Positions 17,541-27,415 of a stretch of 33,686 bases of DNA are shown piece after piece; position 1 is the first letter of the stretch, and every line of letters begins with the position of its first letter. The translations under genes were made by a program, and so were the position numbers. The stretch comes from Planctomycetota bacterium (GTDB taxonomy: Bacteria; Planctomycetota; Phycisphaerae; Phycisphaerales; SM1A02). Below the pieces are notes generated by a model, which was not told the DNA's origin, did no database searches, and saw nothing but the letters and a program-made list of their open reading frames with translations. The stretch spans positions 1 to 33,686 of the forward strand of contig VGYQ01000023.1 of the NCBI GenBank assembly GCA_016872915.1, in the 5' to 3' direction.

Positions 17541-18674
17541 ATGCAGTTTGACGAGTCATTCCAACTGCCGCTTCATCACCGAGTGATCTTTTCCGCGGCG
17601 CTTCTCGATCCATCGAACCGTGTGCTGCGGGATGTATTGGCAGGAAGCGGCGCGCGAAGAGCGATCGCATTCGTGGATGCCGGTGTGGAGAGCGCTCATC
17701 CACAAGGTGCGCGTGCACTGCAAGCGTGGTTCCATGCACAAGCGTCTGCCGGCCACATGCTGCCCGACCTCTGCAGCGTCGACGTCGTTCCGGGAGGCGA
17801 GGGAGCCAAGAACGACTCCACTGTTGTCGACCAGGTCATTGCCGCGACGGAGCGGCACTCCATCGATCGCAGGAGCTTTGTCATCGCCATTGGTGGTGGC
17901 GCGATGCTGGATGCGGTCGGCCTTGGTGCAACGCTGGCACACCGCGGTGTGCGACTTGTACGCATTCCAACCACCACCCTCGCCATGGACGATGCTGCGA
18001 TGGGTGTGAAAAATGGCATCAACCGATTTGGAAAGAAGAACTATGTCGGTGCGTTCGCCGTACCGTGGGCCGTCCTGTGCGACGAGACCTATCTGGAGAC
18101 ACTCAGCAGTCGCGACTTCCGAGCAGGCTTCAGTGAGGCGGTCAAGATTGCCTGTCTGCGAGATCCATCCCTCCTGACACAGATGGAACGCGATGCGGCA
18201 CGGATTGCTGCGAGAGACATCCGTGTGTCGATGCCGACCATCGTTCGATGCGCACAACTGCATCTGGAACACATCACGCGTGGAGGCGATCCCTTCGAAC
18301 TTCGTGAGGCGCGCCCACTGGACTTTGGGCATTGGTCCGCACACAAGCTGGAGTCGCTGAGTGGATTCACCATACCCCACGGTGAGGCTGTGTCCATCGG
18401 TATCGCACTCGACTGTGCGTATGCGCAGCGCATCGGCTTGCTGCAGGAGGACGACGCGGTGCGTGTGACGGCATGCCTGCGCGCACTGTCTCTGCCTACT
18501 TGGCACCCGCTGCTCGAGAACATCGATGGGCTCCTGCGTGGACTGGAAGATTTCCGCGAGCACCTTGGTGGGGTGCTCACCATCACGCAGCTCACGGCCA
18601 TCGGTGCATCGGTCGATGTCCACGAGATGGATGCGGCCGTACTTCGTGCAGCAGTGCGTTCGCTCGCTCCATAG
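17541..18674 (+). CDS. eboD: EboD: 3-dehydroquinate synthase-like sugar-phosphate cyclase of the Ebo cluster
   Basis: 377 residues. The NAD-binding site is FVIAIGGGAMLDAVG with PTTTLAMDDAAMGVKNG and FGKKNYVGAFAVP. The three metal ligands of the dehydroquinate synthase fold are conserved: E199 (GFSEAVK), H264 (DFGHWSAHK) and H280 (IPHGEAVSIG). DFGHWSAHKLE and the surrounding residues match the EboD group rather than true AroB, and the ebo neighbours confirm this. The substrate is unknown; the family cyclises phosphorylated ketoses. GAGGT five bases before the ATG is a good ribosome site. Transcription presumably starts in the short leader after the terminator (17478-17540), where I see no strong promoter hexamers. 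The stop is 10 bases before the next gene. Confidence 0.92.
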   Translation: MQFDESFQLPLHHRVIFSAALLDPSNRVLRDVLAGSGARRAIAFVDAGVESAHPQGARALQAWFHAQASAGHMLPDLCSVDVVPGGEGAKNDSTVVDQVIAATERHSIDRRSFVIAIGGGAMLDAVGLGATLAHRGVRLVRIPTTTLAMDDAAMGVKNGINRFGKKNYVGAFAVPWAVLCDETYLETLSSRDFRAGFSEAVKIACLRDPSLLTQMERDAARIAARDIRVSMPTIVRCAQLHLEHITRGGDPFELREARPLDFGHWSAHKLESLSGFTIPHGEAVSIGIALDCAYAQRIGLLQEDDAVRVTACLRALSLPTWHPLLENIDGLLRGLEDFREHLGGVLTITQLTAIGASVDVHEMDAAVLRAAVRSLAP

Positions 18675-18684
18675 GATGCATGGC

Positions 18685-18993
18685 ATGTCGATCCCGCTGA
18701 AGGCACGCGAAGTCGCAGACCGCTACTTCCTTGAGCACCGCGCAAAGGTGCTTGATCTTGCCGCATTTCTTGACCGTTACGACCGAGCTGCGCAGGCGGG
18801 CGGTGAACCCACCACCGATCGCAGTGAAGATGTTCGGATGCGCGCCATGGTGGCCGCGATTCGCCAGCTCGTGGATGGCCAGCCCGATCGAGCACGCCGC
18901 GTGCTCGAACTGTGGAGCGATCATTCGACGGAACCGATTGACCGGGCGCCCATGAAGGGTGCCATCGGAGCTGCCCCACTCCAGGACCGCTGA
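18685..18993 (+). CDS. Small helical protein of unknown function inside the ebo cluster
   Basis: 102 residues from ATG 18685 (MSIPLKAREVADRYF). An alternative ATG at 18676 adds three residues. AGGA eight bases before 18685 supports the chosen start. The sequence is charged and predicted mostly helical: ADRYFLEHRAKVLDLAAFLDR, an acidic and Arg-rich middle (TTDRSEDVRMRAM), a second helix around IRQLVDGQPDRARRVLEL, and an ordered-looking C-terminus SDHSTEPIDRAPMKGAIGAA. There is no signal peptide, Cys motif or membrane segment. I do not recognise a family. It lies between eboD (10 bases) and eboB (3 bases), so it is co-translated with them and is likely part of the system. It is too short and unlike EboA to be called that. 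Confidence 0.75.
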   Translation: MSIPLKAREVADRYFLEHRAKVLDLAAFLDRYDRAAQAGGEPTTDRSEDVRMRAMVAAIRQLVDGQPDRARRVLELWSDHSTEPIDRAPMKGAIGAAPLQDR

Positions 18994-18996
18994 CGC

Positions 18997-19797
18997 ATGT
19001 ACATCGATCCGCACATCCACATGGTCTCGCGCACAACCGACGACTATCGGGCGATGGCGCTCGCAGGTTGCGTGGCGATCACAGAGCCCGCCTTCTGGGC
19101 TGGGTACGACCGATCAAGCGCACAAGGCTTCGTTGACTACTTCCGCCTGCTCACGGATACCGAACCTCGCCGCGCTGCTCAATTCGGCATCCGCCATCAC
19201 ACGTGGCTCTGCATCAATCCGAAGGAAAGTGAAGACATTGGTCTCGCGCGTGAGGTACTTGCAGAGATTCCCTCTTTCCTTGATCGTCCAAATGTGCTCG
19301 GCATCGGGGAGATTGGACTGAACAAAAACTCGCGCAACGAATTGACGGTGCTGCATGAGCACATCGCACTTGCAGCAAAGCATCAACTGATGATTCTCGT
19401 TCATACGCCGCATTTGGAGGACAAGTTGAAGGGAACGCGCCTCATCATGGATGCGATTCGTGAACATGGCATCGACCCAGGCCGAGTGCTCATCGATCAT
19501 GTCGAGGAACACACGGTTGGCGAAGTACTGCGGCGCGGTTTCTGGGCGGGCATGACGCTGTACCCGGACACGAAGTGCACGCCGCAGCGCGCAGTCGACA
19601 TCTTTGAGATGCATGGCACGGAGCGACTCTGGATCAACTCGGCCGCTGACTGGGGGGTGAGCGATCCACTGGCCGTCCCCAAGTGCCAACAAGAGATGCG
19701 CGGGCGCGGACATCTGGAGGCGGCTGTCCGCAAGGTCTCATTCGAAAACCCCTTTCGATTTCTCTCGCAGTCTGGTCGCTTCTCGACAGGCCGCTGA
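18997..19797 (+). CDS. eboB: EboB: TatD-family metal-dependent hydrolase of the Ebo cluster
   Basis: 266 residues. TIM-barrel amidohydrolase metal ligands are all visible: the HxH at H6 and H8 (YIDPHIHM), E105 (IGEIGLN), H136 (LVHTPH), H168 (LIDHVEE) and D218 (NSAADWG). TatD relatives are nucleases or small-molecule hydrolases; the Ebo member's substrate is unknown. The barrel is complete and close to the usual family length. It follows the small unknown gene by 3 bases and ends 8 bases before the stop of the convergent oxidoreductase gene, where the plus-strand ebo genes are interrupted until 23457. No terminator hairpin is seen in the 8-base gap. Confidence 0.9.
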
Positions 19798-19805
19798 CCT
19801 CTAGG

Positions 19806-21362
19806 TCACTGCACGCCAAGATCCTTCAGGACGCGCACGGCACAGTTATGTCCCGCTGCTCCGATCACGGAGCCCGCAGGATGACATCCGGCACTGCATG
19901 CATACAGACCTTGAACGCCGGCGGAGTACGGCATGCGCTGATCGAAGCCAAACGTATTGTCGACATGATGGATGTGGCCGTGCGTGATCCCGATCTCCTG
20001 CTCGATCTTCGGCGGAGTCAGTACTGCGGTATCCACGACCTGCGCTGAAAGTCCTGGGCAGAATCGTTCGGCAACAGAAATCAGATGGCGCACATAGGAC
20101 TCCTCATGATCCGCCCACGATCCGTTTCGCAGACGATTGGGAACCCATTGGATGAAAAATGCGGCATTGTGATGTCCCTCCGGATCGCGCAGCGATGGGT
20201 CCACCTGTGTGTGGATGTACCACTCGATGGTCGGGAATTCAGGCAGCTCACCGCGCATCGCCTGATCGAAGCCAGCGCGAATCTCCGCGATGGGATCGCT
20301 CCCCTGCGGCAGCAAGTGCATGGTGCCGCGGTGCTGACCGCGTTCTTCTGGCAGACAGCGAAACACAGGCAGGCCACGCAGTGCCATATTGATCTTCATG
20401 GTCGTGCCAGGTCGCTCAAATCCATCGATACGAGTATTCAGCGCATCGGGAATCGCTGCCCGGCCGACGAGCGCCCGAAGGCGAAAGGGATCTGCGCCAC
20501 TGATTACGCAGCGCGTACGAATGTGCCGACCATCCGCCAACACCACTCCATCAACAAGGCCACTCTGCAGCGAGATACGTTCCACGGGCGTGCCCGTCTC
20601 GATCGTTGCACCGTGCGCTTGCGCCGCGTTGGCGAACGCCCGTGCGATCGCTCCCATCCCGCCACGAGCGACCATCCATGTGCCGTCACTGCCTGGCCAT
20701 CGACACATGTTGTGAACAAGAAAGTTCATCCCCGTACCGGGCGTGCCGAAACTTCCGCAAAGACCCGAGAACCCATCGGTCACTGCATACATCGCCATGA
20801 GCAACTGACTCTGGAACCCGAAGCGAGCGAGGTAGTCCTCAACCTTTCCGTGGACAAGGTCCAAGAACACGTGCTGCAGCGATGGTCGTATCCACCGTGC
20901 CGCAGTCGCCTCCGCCGAGAGCGGTTCCTCCAGCCAACTTGGCGCGAGATCGTCGCGCAGTTGACTGATCTCCTCGGCAAGCGCACGGTTCGCCCGCCAA
21001 TCCGCTTCCGAGAACATGGCCAGGAACTGGCTGCGCATCGCATCGTGGTCGGTGCCGAAGAGCAGAAAGCGACCATCCAGCATCGGCAAGAAATAGTGCG
21101 GGTCGCGTCGGATGACCTCCAATTTCACCCCCGTGCGCTGCTCGATCTCGGGAGGCATCAGACCAAGCAGATACGAGGCCGTTGATGTCGCAAGACGAGG
21201 GACCTTGCGAAAGGGCCGTTCCGTTCTCGTCGCACCACCGATGATCGCTCGCCCCTCGATCACATGCACCCGGAGTCCGGCCCGAGCGAGCATCGTTGCA
21301 GCCACCAACCCATTGTGTCCTGCACCGACAATGACCACATCTGATTGCGGGTGTGTGTTCAC
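19806..21362 (-). CDS. FAD-dependent oxidoreductase, PYROXD2/phytoene desaturase-like
   Basis: 518 residues from GTG 21362 (VNTHPQSDVVIVGAG). The FAD-binding Rossmann motif is VVIVGAGHNGLVAATMLARAG with ATRTERPFRKV after it; the middle has GSFGTPGTGMNFLVHNM and WMVARGGMGAIARAFANAA; the C-terminal FAD-closing motif is YACSAGCHPAGSVIGAAGHN. This is the COG1233 group, closer to PYROXD2-type proteins than to carotenoid desaturases with known substrates. Its GTG overlaps the stop of the upstream membrane-protein gene as GTGA, so they are coupled. The frame is open far upstream but that reading has no homology-like content. Sitting inside an ebo cluster that makes or moves an unknown metabolite, it could oxidise that compound; this is inference. 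Confidence 0.88.
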   Translation of the reverse strand: MNTHPQSDVVIVGAGHNGLVAATMLARAGLRVHVIEGRAIIGGATRTERPFRKVPRLATSTASYLLGLMPPEIEQRTGVKLEVIRRDPHYFLPMLDGRFLLFGTDHDAMRSQFLAMFSEADWRANRALAEEISQLRDDLAPSWLEEPLSAEATAARWIRPSLQHVFLDLVHGKVEDYLARFGFQSQLLMAMYAVTDGFSGLCGSFGTPGTGMNFLVHNMCRWPGSDGTWMVARGGMGAIARAFANAAQAHGATIETGTPVERISLQSGLVDGVVLADGRHIRTRCVISGADPFRLRALVGRAAIPDALNTRIDGFERPGTTMKINMALRGLPVFRCLPEERGQHRGTMHLLPQGSDPIAEIRAGFDQAMRGELPEFPTIEWYIHTQVDPSLRDPEGHHNAAFFIQWVPNRLRNGSWADHEESYVRHLISVAERFCPGLSAQVVDTAVLTPPKIEQEIGITHGHIHHVDNTFGFDQRMPYSAGVQGLYACSAGCHPAGSVIGAAGHNCAVRVLKDLGVQ

Positions 21363-21799
21363 GCCGACTCCGAATGAGCTGGCTTCACTGTGTTGGTGCG
21401 TCGATGCAACGCACGCGGCGAGTGCGTCCCAACGACTGCCGATATGCCGCCCACGATTGATGCGAGCACTGCAATCCAAAACGGTGTTGCGCTGATCGCG
21501 CCACTTGTGCGCGCAGCAAGGAGCCCGATGGCAGCCGTCGAAAACAGCAGGCCTGCGAGCAGATAACCGCACACCCGACCGCCACCCCACCAGACGGCTG
21601 CGAATCCGCCGCACCATGCGCTTGCTGCTGAGACCACGAGAACGACGACGACCTGCGAAAGCGACGACGCATCATTCGCGCGTATGTCCCAGAACCTTGG
21701 CCCGAGCGTGAGATCCACGAGCGTTGAGAGAAACATCACCGTCACAACGACTGCCGCGTAGCCGAGCGCAATGCCGAGCAAAAGACGAAAAATTCGCAC
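21359..21799 (-). CDS. Small four-helix membrane protein, unknown function
   Basis: 146 residues from GTG 21799 (MRIFRLLLGIALGYAAVVV). Four hydrophobic segments are visible: about 4-26, 47-70 (SLSQVVVVLVVSAASAWCGGFAAVWW), 74-92 (CGYLLAGLLFSTAAIGLLAA) and 104-122 (PFWIAVLASIVGGISAVVG), followed by a short basic cytosolic-type tail. I do not recognise a family. It overlaps the oxidoreductase gene by four bases and is first in this two-gene minus-strand unit, divergent from the SIMPL gene across about 114 bases. Confidence 0.75.
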   Translation of the reverse strand: MRIFRLLLGIALGYAAVVVTVMFLSTLVDLTLGPRFWDIRANDASSLSQVVVVLVVSAASAWCGGFAAVWWGGGRVCGYLLAGLLFSTAAIGLLAARTSGAISATPFWIAVLASIVGGISAVVGTHSPRALHRRTNTVKPAHSESA

Positions 21800-21913
21800 G
21801 TCGACACTTTACAAGCGCAAAGCCACTTCTAGCCTCATCGGTCCAGCGCGGTGCACGGAAGCCCGCGCCATTCGCACAACCTGCAGAATGATCCTGCAGC
21901 ACGGAGGCTCATC

Positions 21914-22714
21914 ATGACATCGCTCCCCTCATCGTCCGCTTCGCCGTCCACGAAGGAATCGATCGCACCAACAAAGTCGCAGGGCATCGGGTGGGGAATG
22001 TTCCTGCTCGGCGGATCGCTTGCTGTCGGACTTGTGCTGGCATCTCAATCACTCGGTAATGCGATCGCGCACTTCAATGACACGGCTGCGCCGATTGATG
22101 TGCGCGGTGTCGCGGCGCGCGATGTGGTTTCAGACCGGGCATCGTGGAACGCCACAATCTTTGCTCGTGGCAAGACGCTTCCCGAGGCGTTTGAGATTCA
22201 GCAGCGTTCCACGGCTGCGTTGACTTCAGTGCTGACCGCATCGGTGCTCGCAAAGGACACGATCGAAATCTCCGAAATCGACACGACGCGCATCTACCAA
22301 AAGACTGCTGACGGCAAGGACACTAATACGGTCGAGTCGTATGTGTTGAACCAACGCGTCCGCGTCTTGAGCGACAACGTGAACGCTATTGCCGAGATAT
22401 CCCGCGGCTGCACGAACCTCATCAAGAATGGCATCGAGATCGAATCTCACTCGCCATCGTTCTGGGTGTCATCGCTTGAAACGCTCAAACTTCAACTGCT
22501 TCGTGAGGCAACCGAGAACGCTGCCGAGCGGGCAAGGTTGTTGGCGGCAGGATCAAGCAAGGGAGTTGGCGCACTGCTCGATGCTTCGCAAGGGGTCTTT
22601 CAAATCGTGCCGCAGGGATCCACAAGTGTCAGTGACTATGGCTACAGCGACACCACCGCGATCCGAAAGAGCGTCCGTGCCACCGTTTCGCTCCGCTACG
22701 CGATCGCCCAGTGA
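21914..22714 (+). CDS. SIMPL-domain (DUF541) protein, membrane anchored
   Basis: 266 residues from ATG 21914 (MTSLPSSSASPSTK), supported by GGAGG seven bases upstream. A Ser/Thr-rich cytosolic tail leads to one transmembrane helix at about 26-46, then an extracytoplasmic SIMPL domain (about 58-266) with IDVRGVAARDVVSDRASW near its start and ISEIDTTRIYQKTADGK, LNQRVRVLSDNVNAI and ATENAAERARLLAAGSSK. These proteins occur in oligomeric envelope assemblies of unclear role. A longer start at 21851 would include the ribosome site region and is rejected. The stop overlaps a possible GTG start (22711) for the amidotransferase gene. Confidence 0.87.
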   Translation: MTSLPSSSASPSTKESIAPTKSQGIGWGMFLLGGSLAVGLVLASQSLGNAIAHFNDTAAPIDVRGVAARDVVSDRASWNATIFARGKTLPEAFEIQQRSTAALTSVLTASVLAKDTIEISEIDTTRIYQKTADGKDTNTVESYVLNQRVRVLSDNVNAIAEISRGCTNLIKNGIEIESHSPSFWVSSLETLKLQLLREATENAAERARLLAAGSSKGVGALLDASQGVFQIVPQGSTSVSDYGYSDTTAIRKSVRATVSLRYAIAQ

Positions 22715-22757
22715 TTTCAGCCCACATCGATGACGGGCGGGTGCGGAGGGCGATGAT

Positions 22758-22772
22758 CGACCATAATGGTCG
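22758..22772. promoter_or_regulatory. Perfect 15-base palindrome at the start of the amidotransferase-eboE-eboC genes
   Basis: cgaccat-a-atggtcg has 7-bp perfect arms around a single base and ends one base before ATG 22774. Its position at the head of a three-gene overlapping unit suits an operator, or a promoter-overlapping site. If translation starts upstream at 22711 or 22753 it would instead be coding. Confidence 0.4.
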
Positions 22773-22773
22773 G

Positions 22774-23460
22774 ATGCACCCGCCTGTCATCGGTATTACC
22801 GCCAACTTGGTGCGCGATCCACAGGGACGACTGCGCCATGAAGTGAAGCAGACCTATCTCGATGCGATCATCCGAACGGGTGGCGTTCCCATTCTTCTGC
22901 CCGCAATCGCTGAGATCCGCGCCACGCTGCTGAAGCGCTGCGATGGCATCGTGATCACAGGTGGTGATGACATCGATGTCCGTCCCTTTGGTGTCGCTCT
23001 CCATCCAGAGGCACAAGTGATGGAACCGGCACGGCAGGAGGCGGAGTTCGCGCTGCTTCGCGCACTCGACGCGCAACCAGAACGACCCGTGCTTGGCATC
23101 TGCCTTGGCATGCAACTCATGGGTGTGCACGCGGGCTGTCCACTGATCCAGCATTTGCACGACGTCAAGCCTGATGCCGACCGTCACAGGTTCGACCATA
23201 TCCACACGGTCGAAAGTGCACTCGGCAGTGGTCCAGTCGCGAGTTGGCATCATCAGGCCCTCGCAGCCCCTGGACCGTTTGATGCGATCGGGTGGAGTGA
23301 TGACGGCGTTCTCGAAGCGATCCGATCCCCAAAGCGCCCCTTCTATGTGGGCGTGCAGTGGCACCCTGAACGGACGGCAGATGCCACCATGGGCGATGGC
23401 ATTGTTGCCCAGTTGGTACACGCCGCACGCGAGCACGCCAACACTTCGGTCATGCAATGA
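22774..23460 (+). CDS. Class I glutamine amidotransferase-like protein (peptidase C26, gamma-glutamyl-GABA hydrolase type)
   Basis: 228 residues from ATG 22774 (MHPPVIGITANL), the normal start context of the family. The catalytic triad is C110 in GICLGMQLMG, and H197 and E199 in GVQWHPERT. GGVPILLPAI and ITGGDDIDVRPFG are typical of PuuD/peptidase C26 proteins that cleave gamma-glutamyl amides. Alternative starts are ATG 22753, with GGAGGG placed too close, and GTG 22711, overlapping the SIMPL stop; these add 7 and 21 residues without homology. The stop overlaps eboE as ATGA (23457-23460), so it is coupled to the ebo genes. A role in trimming a gamma-glutamyl group from an Ebo intermediate is attractive speculation. 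Confidence 0.88.
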   Translation: MHPPVIGITANLVRDPQGRLRHEVKQTYLDAIIRTGGVPILLPAIAEIRATLLKRCDGIVITGGDDIDVRPFGVALHPEAQVMEPARQEAEFALLRALDAQPERPVLGICLGMQLMGVHAGCPLIQHLHDVKPDADRHRFDHIHTVESALGSGPVASWHHQALAAPGPFDAIGWSDDGVLEAIRSPKRPFYVGVQWHPERTADATMGDGIVAQLVHAAREHANTSVMQ

Positions 23461-24638
23461 CTGCACTGACACTTGGCTATTGCACGAATGTGCATGGCGG
23501 TCCGTCGCTTGCACAGACGCTGGACGGTCTCGAACGTCACGCCGTTGCGGTACGCCGATTGCACGGCCGTGGTGCGCCCTTGCCGATTGGACTATGGCTC
23601 AGCGCCCAAGCGGCGCAGGAGATACTCACGGCCGACGATGGAGCTGCTCGACTGCGTGATTGGCTCGGGGAGCGGGCGCTTTCCGTTTTCACGCTCAACG
23701 GTTTCCCCTTTGGTGATTTCCGTGCAGCAACAGTCAAGAAGTCCGTCTACCAACCTGATTGGCGTGACCCACGGCGGGTGAAGTACACGACTGCGCTCGC
23801 AGACATTCTCGCTGTGCTTTGTGGTGGCGGCGGCGTCTCTGTCTCCAACGGAACGCCGATTCACGAGGCGTCGATCTCCACCCTTCCGATCGGTTGGCGC
23901 GATGGGTTCTCCCAGAATGGCTGTGGACAGGATGCGGCGCTTGCGGCGGCGCATATCGATCAAGTGGCGCGTCATCTCCGTGTGATCGAGGACCGCACAG
24001 GGCTCTGCATTCACCTCGACATCGAGCCCGAACCGGGCTGCATGCTCGATACGTCACAGGATGTCATCGACTTCTTCACGCAAGCACTCCGTCCGAGCGC
24101 AGCTCTTCCCGATCCGATGCGCCACGTGCGCGTCTGCCATGACATCTGCCATGCCGCGGTGATGTTCGAATCACAGGTGGATGTGCTGGCGAACTATCGG
24201 CGCGCAGGAATCCGAATCGGCAAGGTGCAGGTGTCAAATGCCCTCGCGTGCGATGGTTCCGAACGCGCGTTTCGCGCGCTGCGGAACTTCGATGAACCTC
24301 GTTTTCTCCACCAGACATGCGTACTCGATGGGGCCGCCAAGGTGCATTTCTTTGAGGACCTTGGAAGCGCATTCGATGAAGCACCCAATGGCGTCTGGCG
24401 TGTCCATTTCCATGTCCCTGTCGATCTGGAATTCGTCGGCCCGCTCAGCACCACCCGCCACGACATTGAAGCCTGCTTCGAGGCGATCGAGCCTGGAGAT
24501 GGAATCCGACTCTTTGAGGTCGAGACGTATGCCTGGGAGGCTCTGCCGATTGATCTCCGCCGCGATAGTTTGGCCCATGGCATTGCCGATGAACTGGCAT
24601 GGACACAGCAACGGTTGAATGCCCTCCGACGCACATGA
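23457..24638 (+). CDS. eboE: EboE: TIM-barrel protein of the Ebo cluster (sugar isomerase/endonuclease-like fold)
   Basis: 393 residues, starting MTALTLGYCTNVHGG, a family-typical opening. The barrel's metal-binding-type residues lie in CIHLDIEPEPGC, RVCHDICHAAVMFE and FHVPVDLEF, and the end has LFEVETYAWEALP. The family resembles xylose isomerase-like and AP-endonuclease 2 barrels, and no reaction is established for EboE. Its ATG overlaps the amidotransferase stop by four bases and its own stop overlaps eboC by four bases. This three-gene chain shows that the cluster resumes here under tight translational coupling. Length and motifs look complete. Confidence 0.92.
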   Translation: MTALTLGYCTNVHGGPSLAQTLDGLERHAVAVRRLHGRGAPLPIGLWLSAQAAQEILTADDGAARLRDWLGERALSVFTLNGFPFGDFRAATVKKSVYQPDWRDPRRVKYTTALADILAVLCGGGGVSVSNGTPIHEASISTLPIGWRDGFSQNGCGQDAALAAAHIDQVARHLRVIEDRTGLCIHLDIEPEPGCMLDTSQDVIDFFTQALRPSAALPDPMRHVRVCHDICHAAVMFESQVDVLANYRRAGIRIGKVQVSNALACDGSERAFRALRNFDEPRFLHQTCVLDGAAKVHFFEDLGSAFDEAPNGVWRVHFHVPVDLEFVGPLSTTRHDIEACFEAIEPGDGIRLFEVETYAWEALPIDLRRDSLAHGIADELAWTQQRLNALRRT

Positions 24639-25987
24639 CCCCCGACCGCAGCGCACGGACGAGTGGACTTTGGCAGTGGCTGGCACTGCTCCGCGCATCC
24701 AATACGCCGACAGTGTTGGCGGACTGCGCAGTCGGCATTGCGATGGTCGCCGCCATTCGTGCGAGCTTGTCCTACCCCGGCTTGGTCTTTGACGGGCTCT
24801 TCGAGGTCGTGTGCGCGATGTGCGCCCTGTACTTCGCAGGAATGGTGTTGAACGCAATCGTCGATCGCGACATCGATGCCATTGAACGCCCCACTCGTCC
24901 CGTGGCAAGCGGACGAATCCGTCTCCCTGCCGCCTGGACGGCATTTATCGCACTCCTCACCATTGGCTTGTCGTTTGGCATTGGCATGACCACCGGATTC
25001 GTGCCATTGGCTGCTGCCGCACTCATCGGTGTGTGGACCCTTGACAAAGCTCGCCGATCCCAGTCGATCATGCTGCACCGCATCGGGCGGATGTGGATCG
25101 CCGTATCGCTCCTTGGAGCGGCGGCATGGCTCGCTGTGATGCTGATGACGGATCCTTTCGATCTCACCGGCTTCGAAGAGGATCGCGCACAACAGATTCG
25201 CATTGGCTGGCGGGCAACGACCATGCCTGTGCTGCTGCTTTCCCTCGCCGCAATCTCGTACAACCTTCTCCACAAGCGCACTGCATGGTCTGTGATACTG
25301 CTCGCGGCGTGCCGGTTTTTCGTACCCGTTTCAGTCTGCCTCGCACTCCTTGCGCGAACTGGCTCGCTCGACACAAGACTGCTCTCGATGAACGCGGGCA
25401 GCGTTCTCGCAGTACTGCTGCTCCCACCACTCGCCATTGCACTTCACACACTCATGCTTTCGATCGTGGCTCGGCGCGAAGCGGATCAGCATTTCACCGA
25501 GGCACGATGCCCACACTGTGGATATCGACTGCTCAATCCATCTGCCATCCGCTGCAGTGAATGTGGCTGCGACCTCACCGCACGACCGCCTATCTGTAGC
25601 CATCCGATTCCACCTGCACTCCGTGTTTGGCTCCCATTCCTGGCGGCGGTCGGACTGCTTCCGGCACTTGTGCTGTCCGCGGTCTCCATACGTGAGTCTC
25701 TCGGACTGATGCGCGCAGGTGCCGCCACAGGCAGCGTCATGCACCTCGTGCTCATCGCGCTCGCTTGTGTCGCTGCATTGTGCTTCGTGTGGATCTCCCT
25801 GCGCGGCCTCGCTGCAGCACTGAATCATCCATCGCGTCGCCCCACAGGAGTCGCGGCGCTTATCGCCGCACTTGCGCTGCTCGATGCATGTCTGTGTGCC
25901 CTGCTTGGTCAGCCGCTGTTGCTTGGCGTATGCGCCGCACTTTGGTTCATCACGCGCACCTTGCAACGCAGAACCGCGGGGAGCTGA
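24635..25987 (+). CDS. eboC: EboC: UbiA-family prenyltransferase-like protein with fused zinc ribbon and extra membrane domain
   Basis: 450 residues from ATG 24635, which overlaps the eboE stop as ATGA. The N-terminal part (about 15-290) is a multi-helix UbiA-type domain with the first Asp-rich motif NAIVDRDIDAIERPTRP. The second Asp-rich motif of active prenyltransferases is replaced by YNLLHKRTAWSV, similar to what I recall for EboC. A zinc ribbon follows (C292, C295, C307, C310; CPHCGY and CSEC), then about four more transmembrane helices to the end. EboC proteins as I know them are near 300 residues without a ribbon, so the C-terminal 160 residues look like a fusion. CPxCGY ribbons are common in planctomycete membrane proteins. 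An ATG at 24599 exists but overlaps eboE by 40 bases. Confidence 0.88.
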   Translation: MTPDRSARTSGLWQWLALLRASNTPTVLADCAVGIAMVAAIRASLSYPGLVFDGLFEVVCAMCALYFAGMVLNAIVDRDIDAIERPTRPVASGRIRLPAAWTAFIALLTIGLSFGIGMTTGFVPLAAAALIGVWTLDKARRSQSIMLHRIGRMWIAVSLLGAAAWLAVMLMTDPFDLTGFEEDRAQQIRIGWRATTMPVLLLSLAAISYNLLHKRTAWSVILLAACRFFVPVSVCLALLARTGSLDTRLLSMNAGSVLAVLLLPPLAIALHTLMLSIVARREADQHFTEARCPHCGYRLLNPSAIRCSECGCDLTARPPICSHPIPPALRVWLPFLAAVGLLPALVLSAVSIRESLGLMRAGAATGSVMHLVLIALACVAALCFVWISLRGLAAALNHPSRRPTGVAALIAALALLDACLCALLGQPLLLGVCAALWFITRTLQRRTAGS

Positions 25988-26023
25988 TCACGTCACGATC
26001 GCCTGCCCTACCCTCTCACAGCC

Positions 26024-27415
26024 GTGGCAAAGCGACTTGCGATTCTCAATGTGGTCGGCCTGACGCCGCACCTTCTTGGCGCAGCGACTCCAAATCTTGT
26101 CGCCTTTGCGAGGCGCTGCGGAGGAATCCGATCGTTGGTGCCCGACCTACCTGCGGTCACAAGCACTGTTCAAGCGAGCATCCTGACAGGCACGCGGCCA
26201 AGCGAACATGGCATCGTCGGCAATGGATGGTTTGACCGAGATCTGAATGAGGTGCACTTCTGGAAGCAGTCGTCTGCTCTTGTGCAGCGACCAAGACTTT
26301 GGGAGATCGCACGGCGCCGTGATCCGCGGGTCTCCACGGCGAATCTCTTCTGGTGGAACGCAATGCATTCTGGGGCGGATATCACCGTCACCCCACGCCC
26401 CGTCTACTGTGCGGATGGTCGAAAGGTGCCGGACATTTGGACCACTCCGTCCGCATGGCGTGATGAGTTGCAGTCTGAACTCGGCGCATTCCCGCTCTTC
26501 CACTTTTGGGGTCCCGCCGCGGATATCCGATCGACGCAGTGGATCGCGCGCGCGGCCATGCTGACTGTCGCGCGGCATGATCCGACCATTACGCTCGTCT
26601 ACCTCCCCCACTTGGACTACCCGCTGCAGCGTCTGGGAGGCGATGCCGCAAACCCACATCTGCGTGCCGACCTCCGCGAGATGGATGAAGTCTTCGGCGT
26701 ACTGCTGCGCTTCTTTGATGACCGTGGCATTCGAGTGATGGTGTTGAGCGAGTATGGCATCGCATCCGTGAAACGCCCCGTGTATTTGAACCGCGTACTG
26801 CGCGGCGCTGGGCTTATCGCTCTACGAAACGAACTCGGACGTGAGCATGCCGATGTCGGTGCATCGCGGGCGTTTGCCGTATGCGATCATCAGGTCGCGC
26901 ATATCCGTGTGACAGGTGCCGACGATAGAGGCGCCGTGGCCGAACTCCTACGTGCCACGCCTGGCGTGGGAGAAGTTCTCGATGAAAGCGCCAAACAAGC
27001 GGCAGGCCTCGCGCACCGCCGCGCGGGAGATCTCGTGGCCATCGCCGCAGAGGACAGTTGGTTCGCCTATCCGTGGTGGAACGACGATGCGCTCGCACCC
27101 GACTACGCGCGAACCGTCGATATCCACCGCAAGCCGGGCTACGACCCGTGCGAACTGTTCCTCGATCCCAAACTCACGCTTCCGAAGGCACGAATTGCGC
27201 TGCGTCTGCTGCAGCGGCGACTCGGCCAGCGGGCGCTCTTGGATGTCATTCCGCTCGATGCATCACTTGTACGTGGATCGCATGGACGTGTGGAGGGCGC
27301 GCACGCGCTTCGCCCTGTCCTCATGGTGGATGACACGGACTCCGACGAGCTCGAAGTACCGGCACATCAAGTGCTGCCATTCATCCTGCGCCAGGTGTTT
27401 GGTCGGGACGGATGA
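26024..27415 (+). CDS. eboF: EboF: alkaline phosphatase-superfamily (phosphodiesterase/nucleotide pyrophosphatase-like) protein
   Basis: 463 residues from GTG 26024. The N-terminus ILNVVGLTPHLLG, the nucleophile region LPAVTSTVQASILTGTRPSEHGIVGNGW, YLPHLDYPLQRLG, VLSEYGI and ARTVDIHRKPGYDPCELF match EboF as I remember it. The usual metal-site Asp and DHG residues of the superfamily are altered to NVVG and EYG, which appears to be a property of the EboF group rather than local decay. The substrate is unknown. The gene is 36 bases after eboC and completes the cluster. Its 3' end overlaps the convergent cysNC gene by 35 bases, with no terminator visible between them. Confidence 0.92.
   Translation: MAKRLAILNVVGLTPHLLGAATPNLVAFARRCGGIRSLVPDLPAVTSTVQASILTGTRPSEHGIVGNGWFDRDLNEVHFWKQSSALVQRPRLWEIARRRDPRVSTANLFWWNAMHSGADITVTPRPVYCADGRKVPDIWTTPSAWRDELQSELGAFPLFHFWGPAADIRSTQWIARAAMLTVARHDPTITLVYLPHLDYPLQRLGGDAANPHLRADLREMDEVFGVLLRFFDDRGIRVMVLSEYGIASVKRPVYLNRVLRGAGLIALRNELGREHADVGASRAFAVCDHQVAHIRVTGADDRGAVAELLRATPGVGEVLDESAKQAAGLAHRRAGDLVAIAAEDSWFAYPWWNDDALAPDYARTVDIHRKPGYDPCELFLDPKLTLPKARIALRLLQRRLGQRALLDVIPLDASLVRGSHGRVEGAHALRPVLMVDDTDSDELEVPAHQVLPFILRQVFGRDG

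Follow-up and report, generated by a model that had tools for sequence, protein, structure and literature searches.

A split EboG-type ebo gene cluster in a planctomycete genome

Clusters of ebo genes are widespread and have been tied to metabolite export. The ABCDEF-type operon is found in cyanobacteria, Bacteroidota and eustigmatophyte plastids, and is linked to scytonemin in Nostoc, where ebo mutants are described as keeping the scytonemin monomer in the cytoplasm, the export role being known from Nostoc only (PMC6282210). In a second form, described in 2016, eboA is replaced by a short gene provisionally named eboG (Deinococcales, Herpetosiphon, Thermithiobacillus and an acidobacterium; Yurchenko et al., PMC5133447). 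In the sections of that paper dealing with this gene, the mutual exclusion of eboA and eboG and a negative HHalign test are already stated (section 3.2), the EboB tree is split by partner with maximal support (section 3.3), and EboG is proposed to act as a regulatory subunit or to provide a different final step (section 3.7). No other paper treating eboG was found in the open-licence literature. Here, an ebo cluster is examined in a 33,686 nt stretch of DNA (the window) from a planctomycete of the order Phycisphaerales (contig VGYQ01000023.1, assembly GCA_016872915.1). The locus is a further member of this known variant, which has drawn little notice, rather than a new system.

The cluster and its small gene

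All six ebo genes of the window are on the + strand, in the order EboD-EboG-EboB, a 3.7 kb gap (from 19797, the end of eboB, to 23457, the start of eboE), then EboE-EboC-EboF. The features are:

17541..18674, + strand: eboD, a PRK06203-family sugar phosphate cyclase (NF004852/PRK06203, 468 bits against a cut-off of 333; aroB model, 191 bits, below its cut-off of 305)
18676..18993, + strand: eboG, predicted three-helix protein of about 105 aa, at the place where eboA usually sits ('unknown' in the first-pass annotation)
18997..19797, + strand: eboB, TatD-like metal-dependent hydrolase of the EboG-type subfamily without a C-terminal tail (PF01026, 31.6 bits, cut-off 27)
19806..21617, − strand: inserted CrtI/CrtO-like flavin adenine dinucleotide (FAD) oxidoreductase (matches to Pfam DAO/Amino_oxidase, and to NCBIfam CrtO under the cut-off); judged by its nucleotide-binding motif, the true start is probably near 21365
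21359..21799, − strand: inserted small open reading frame (ORF) resembling a membrane protein (no match in Pfam or NCBIfam)
21851..22714, + strand: inserted SIMPL (DUF541) protein (PF04402, 73 bits)
22711..23460, + strand: C26 (gamma-glutamyl hydrolase-like) peptidase gene (PF07722, 130 bits), overlapping eboE by 4 nt
23457..24638, + strand: eboE, xylose-isomerase-like triosephosphate isomerase (TIM) barrel (NCBIfam TIM_EboE, NF035939, 390 bits, cut-off 250; AlphaFold2, Foldseek)
24635..25987, + strand: probable eboC, a membrane prenyltransferase of the UbiA type (PF01040, 45 bits, cut-off 34) that contains a CxxC...CxxC stretch, overlapping eboE by 4 nt; presumed to start at the ATGA of this overlap (the longest ORF starts at 24599)
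26024..27415, + strand: eboF, alkaline-phosphatase-superfamily protein (PF01663, 182 bits)

Only 1 nt separates the stop of eboD from the start of eboG, and 3 nt the stop of eboG from the start of eboB; together with the 4 nt overlaps further downstream, two tight operon blocks are likely. The first-pass annotation had read the locus as an ebo cluster with EboD, EboB, EboE, EboC and EboF in a planctomycete-like genome, split as D-unknown-B and E-C-F around 3.7 kb and without EboA. Coordinates, strands, order and profiles agree with it on these points, except that EboC reaches only 58 bits against the EboC model, short of its cut-off of 250 (71 of 260 for the SCO3242 model). EboB and EboF fall into the Pfam families described for these Ebo proteins. 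The profile search of the window EboB returned no EboB model, and the EboA profile NF035938 had no match anywhere in the host genome (2.09 Mb, 90.6% complete). The nearest loci by EboE (86–89% identity) come from three Phycisphaerae/Planctomycetota metagenome-assembled genomes (L031–L033) and have an arrangement identical to that of the window, inserted genes included, which excludes an assembly artefact. The ebo genes adjoin in many genomes, so the association is not confined to this one.

The small gene between eboD and eboB is very probably eboG, an assignment made from homology to Deinococcus and from position. Used as a tblastn query, the window protein matched three plasmid records: Deinococcus sp. 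QL22 (39.6% identity, E 6e-6), Deinococcus sp. AB2017081 (36.0%, E 1e-3) and Gemmatirosa (37.0%, E 1e-8). The two Deinococcus homologues score 101 and 81 bits against the EboG profile and are annotated as 'hypothetical protein'; both lie between eboD and eboB in loci that share the order D-G-B-E-C-F with the window. Counting the window, 49 of 141 records hold a relative of eboG. An alignment of 47 rows has 17 invariant columns, many of them charged or aromatic; the three nearest proteins in it are 76–88% identical to that of the window and the others 43–60%. The family, for which no Pfam or NCBIfam entry exists yet, gave only chance-level matches to Pfam and NCBIfam (47 members each) and to PDB sequences. 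AlphaFold2 predicts helices at residues 10–41, 53–65 and 72–80 (mean predicted local distance difference test score (pLDDT) 81.4, predicted template modelling score (pTM) 0.69), and a Foldseek search of this model against the PDB found no known enzyme fold (best E 2.3). The family was considered as a new one and this was rejected, since section 3.2 of PMC5133447 already describes eboG.

The window thus resembles the EboG-variant operon in its small non-EboA gene, its EboB, D, E and F and probable EboC, and an EboB of the EboG side, but is split by 3.7 kb, has a planctomycete host and carries an enlarged EboC. With the ABCDEF-type operon it shares homologues of B, D, E and F, a probable EboC homologue and a small gene directly 5′ of eboB, while differing in having EboG for EboA, an EboB without the tail and another gene order.

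Across the 49 EboG loci (window included), the ebo genes that are present always follow the order D-G-B-E-C-F, which is beyond chance. All six genes are held by 32 loci and two more are complete with a doubled EboC; 15 are incomplete, five of them cut by contig ends. PMC5133447 reports no ebo clustering in three planctomycete species; planctomycetes do cluster ebo genes, in one class (Phycisphaerae) and in the EboG form, which corrects that report. Clustering of neighbouring ORFs in the 49 loci yielded no other conserved gene, mainly ebo shadow frames and lineage-limited genes.

Exclusion of EboA and EboG and their coupling to EboB

In a survey of 392 Planctomycetota genomes, EboE was matched in 283, EboA in 97 (95 above the cut-off, the other two being dropped) and EboG in 69. 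The 247 genomes with an EboE match of E < 1e-29 were kept, and the 36 with E > 1e-11 were dropped. EboA was present in 89 of the 247 and EboG in 60, none had both, and 98 had neither; the Fisher p value for exclusion is 2e-14, inflated by kinship. The first look of the EboG scan scored at most 12 candidates per genome, so weak ones may escape, and many EboG matches are weak (41–72 bits) and short, some crossing a stop codon near the end. Both partners occur within single families, namely f31 (22 EboG and 5 EboA of 27 genomes) and f72 (1 EboG and 6 EboA of 7), and neither family holds an EboE genome with neither partner. Six EboA genomes have no strong EboE. The surroundings of eboB in 14 loci (L191–L204; 8 from genomes with strong EboE, 6 from genomes without) were inspected for a third helper; at E 0.1 neither EboA nor EboG was matched there, and, judged by eye, no small gene upstream of eboB was common to them.

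Each partner is tied to eboB. At 57 of 69 places EboG is on the strand of eboB and no more than 2 kb 5′ of it (one other place has no listed eboB). Of the EboA places, 99 are listed and 68 were entered; 65 of the 68 show this arrangement, two do not and one has no listed eboB. In all 14 annotated EboA plasmid loci, EboA adjoins a TatD gene.

The EboB sequences are divided in the same way. In a quick tree of 128 rows (the careful search being unfinished), with support by the Shimodaira–Hasegawa-like approximate likelihood ratio test (SH-aLRT), 25 EboA-linked rows form one clade (SH-aLRT 99), and 82 EboG-linked rows, six rows from EboG genomes in which the genes lie at a distance and two unassigned rows form a second (SH-aLRT 99); 13 rows from genomes with neither partner fall outside both. 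The window EboB, represented by the identical L148, is on the EboG side. A C-terminal tail resembling GNS[IV]xRG is found, by a first pattern, in 24 of 28 EboA-linked rows versus 0 of 91 EboG-linked rows. A second pattern finds it in 21 of 24 EboA-linked rows of Planctomycetota, with near variants in the other three, versus 0 of the 16 EboG-linked rows that passed the filter, and in plasmid loci in 19 of 19 EboA-type versus 0 of 3 EboG-type. Likewise, the motif DHNNEE occurs in 26 of 28 EboA-linked rows, and DH[VA]EEH in 89 of 91 EboG-linked rows.

EboE is not sorted by partner. In a quick tree of 69 rows, those of f31 form one clade that includes 14 EboG and 4 EboA genomes, and the six EboA rows of f72 fall within the mostly-EboG half, where their sister is an EboG row. 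As the EboB clades match the partner while EboE does not, it looks as though helper and EboB have been exchanged as a pair, which is the simplest reading of the two trees. The EboB split has been known since 2016. New here are the contrast with EboE, the C-terminal tail, the change of partner inside families and the scale.

Taken together, EboG probably acts through EboB. It would then carry out no pathway step, and would instead be a small helical partner of EboB (an activator, stabiliser or scaffold) that stands in for the unrelated EboA, with EboG-EboB and EboA-EboB as interchangeable two-gene modules. Several observations weigh against this proposal. Neither partner was detected by the EboA and EboG profiles in the 98 genomes mentioned above (e.g., in families f22, f61, f49 and f69), one of which (G109) has an EboE match as strong as E 5e-100, and eight EboG genomes have no strong EboE. 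Eleven of the 69 EboG places are not near eboB; one of them is in G282, an EboA genome, where a partial 27.6-bit match within a 2371 aa frame was dropped, and counting it would raise the number of genomes with both partners to one. Ten of the 49 EboG loci are without EboD, EboC or EboF despite 2.5–10 kb of sequence on that side, so the cluster is not always whole. The EboB and EboE trees are both quick ones with SH-aLRT support only. A kinship of EboG with EboA was rejected (hhalign probability 0.3%), and like function is thus argued from position only.

The lack of kinship, found by hhalign here and in the HHalign test of 2016, also suits a different explanation, one of the options of section 3.7 of PMC5133447: EboA and EboG would be unrelated last-step enzymes, EboB would act just before them, and the two cluster types would make different products. 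EboB differs with its partner as though the substrate differed, and the 17 invariant EboG columns, so often charged or aromatic, fit this too. It is nevertheless unlikely, as EboG is a 105 aa three-helix protein in which Foldseek recognised no known enzyme fold, partner switches occur inside families whose EboE remains in one clade, and the partner is beside eboB whatever the remaining gene order. That EboG is merely a linked regulatory or accessory gene, and the swap a trace of the ancestry of the eboB region with no shared task, is quite improbable. Kinship does inflate the exclusion counts, and many EboE genomes (98 of 247) manage without either partner, but in f31 and f72 both types occur and every EboE genome has one or the other partner, EboG is still 43–60% identical beyond its nearest relatives, and it persists in the 11 places away from eboB.

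Genes inserted between eboB and eboE

The gap between eboB and eboE is at least 600 bp in 12 of the 50 loci with both genes. The C26 gene is present in all 12, and in none of the 38 loci with a gap of less than 600 bp; overall it occurs in 19 of 141 records, and in split clusters its place is immediately 5′ of eboE or up to about 1 kb away on that side. The FAD oxidoreductase, the membrane protein and the SIMPL gene were rejected as core partners, being confined to the window and L031–L033 (4 of 141 records). In the sister loci L034, L048 and L055 the gap is occupied by other genes, one of which reads like a DHA2-type exporter of the major facilitator superfamily (MFS), by its sequence rather than by a profile run.

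The first-pass annotation had suggested that the arrangement may reveal missing partners of the system. This holds for the small gene between eboD and eboB and, for the most part, not for the embedded genes. The four of them could be true pathway partners that give a lineage-specific, modified product, in keeping with the 4 nt overlap of C26 with eboE, its presence in every split locus and the retention of all four genes in L031–L033. The narrow distribution of the other three, the different genes found at that place in the sister loci and the absence of C26 from all 38 loci with a short gap make this a very doubtful proposition.

Presumed ring-forming and tailoring enzymes and a proposed pathway

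EboD is the sole aroB-family match in the host assembly, in which chorismate synthase (aroC) is present. In 10 of 12 congeners there is a second aroB-family match, higher-scoring in nine and in two pieces in one, and above the curated cut-off in a single congener; the other two have one match. The missing second gene of the host is probably an assembly gap. It is highly improbable that EboD is the host's dehydroquinate synthase and the locus part of aromatic amino acid metabolism, as the NCBIfam family name '3-dehydroquinate synthase' and the lack of another aroB-family gene beside chorismate synthase might suggest, since the assembly is only 90.6% complete, most congeners have the second match, and EboD scores below the aroB cut-off, which also answers the concern raised in the first-pass annotation that EboD could be plain AroB.

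The ring-forming enzyme is itself replaced in other phyla. Of 48 plasmid records matching EboE, 24 were fetched, many of the remainder being Streptomyces records with the same identity. Among the 23 plasmid loci with EboB and EboE, nine have EboD, 12 have inositol-3-phosphate synthase, none has both, and two have neither (L234 and L235, where EboC was not found either). The 12 synthase loci comprise 11 from Actinomycetota plasmids (L219–L224, L232, L233, L236–L238) and one from Gemmatirosa (L217), where the synthase occurs together with EboG. In annotated Streptomyces ebo loci, the synthase gene directly precedes that of an SCO3242-family prenyltransferase. EboD-type cyclases and inositol-3-phosphate synthase both close sugar phosphates to rings. 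The use of one or the other therefore lends support to the isoprenoid-cyclitol proposal of 2016, and is a hint that the ring may be inositol-like. The word 'inositol' is absent from PMC5133447 and PMC6282210, and EboA, inositol and prenyltransferase were not found together in the open-licence literature; the swap may be in print elsewhere.

The Actinomycetota clusters L219–L224 and L237 share B, E, F and a UbiA-type prenyltransferase with the window, and differ from it in having inositol-3-phosphate synthase and no EboD, an extra sugar-phosphate isomerase, and EboA instead of EboG. In four of these clusters, from Streptomyces (L219, L222, L223 and L237), a ScyD/ScyE-family (scytonemin-type) protein is annotated beside the ebo genes, and a multicopper oxidase and an MFS transporter lie nearby. 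Elsewhere on plasmids, L225 (Streptomyces sp. NBC_01244) has EboE amid an annotated aromatase/cyclase and FAD monooxygenases, with no other ebo genes in the stretch fetched, and L218 (Ketogulonicigenium vulgare, predicted conjugative) carries a whole EboA-type cluster with two Gfo/Idh/MocA oxidoreductases.

The EboE model (mean pLDDT 92.5) is a xylose-isomerase-like barrel, with Art22, endonuclease IV, xylose isomerase, tagatose epimerase, IolI and IolE as Foldseek neighbours; TM-scores of about 0.5 mean likeness at the superfamily level only. The EboE profile had no match among PDB sequences. EboF is without several residues that serve as metal ligands in nucleotide pyrophosphatases: the Asp is replaced by Val in VVG, the His by Gln in HLDYxLQ, and SDHG by SEYG or SEHG. 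This applies by consensus to 42 planctomycete sequences and also to most plasmid ones, so EboF may not be an ordinary phosphohydrolase. EboC keeps its place between eboE and eboF across loci and has an NxxxDxxID motif, to which some EboC proteins (window, L031–L033) add the CxxC...CxxC stretch. Tandem eboC pairs are found in four loci (L043, L046, L047 and L059), the second copy being without NxxxDxxID. Homologues of EboC are described as working prenyltransferases, one of them, Ubi-297, farnesylating aromatic substrates (PMC9235831). A pathway with the same two activities is that of BE-40644, in which, as told in section 3.7 of PMC5133447, a sugar phosphate cyclase and a UbiA-type farnesyltransferase give an isoprenoid-cyclitol; unlike the window, it has no EboA/G, B, E or F in that description.

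These likenesses suggest the following pathway. EboD would form a cyclitol from a sugar phosphate by ring closure; tailoring of the cyclitol or its precursors would fall to EboE, EboB and EboF; and the membrane enzyme EboC would attach an isoprenoid. The product would be a membrane-bound prenyl-cyclitol, either the end compound or a carrier that moves other metabolites out of the cytoplasm. In the lineage of the window, a few other genes would have come to lie between eboB and eboE. A prenylated cyclitol is about as probable as not to be the product, and the same even balance applies to the model as a whole, which combines an EboG-type cluster, a prenyl-cyclitol and EboG as helper of EboB. Its counterweights on the enzyme side are that inositol-3-phosphate synthase was not found near the cluster in L031–L110, the evidence for its swap coming from other phyla, that the comparisons of EboE and EboG indicated no substrate, and that the altered EboF fits badly with a simple phosphohydrolase role. 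A wider scheme is put forward more tentatively: two slots, each with unrelated and exclusive fillers (EboA/EboG and EboD/inositol-3-phosphate synthase), a prenylated cyclitol made from an inositol-like start and serving perhaps as a lipid carrier in export, and a portable helper-EboB module, for control or assembly, that would pass between bacteria as one unit.

What this locus usefully adds is the two swaps, together with a name for the former 'unknown' gene, the discounting of most embedded genes and a sharper model. Should the small partner indeed move together with EboB, its role becomes narrow enough to test; should inositol-3-phosphate synthase be able to replace EboD, a definite candidate for the first intermediate of the ebo pathway emerges.

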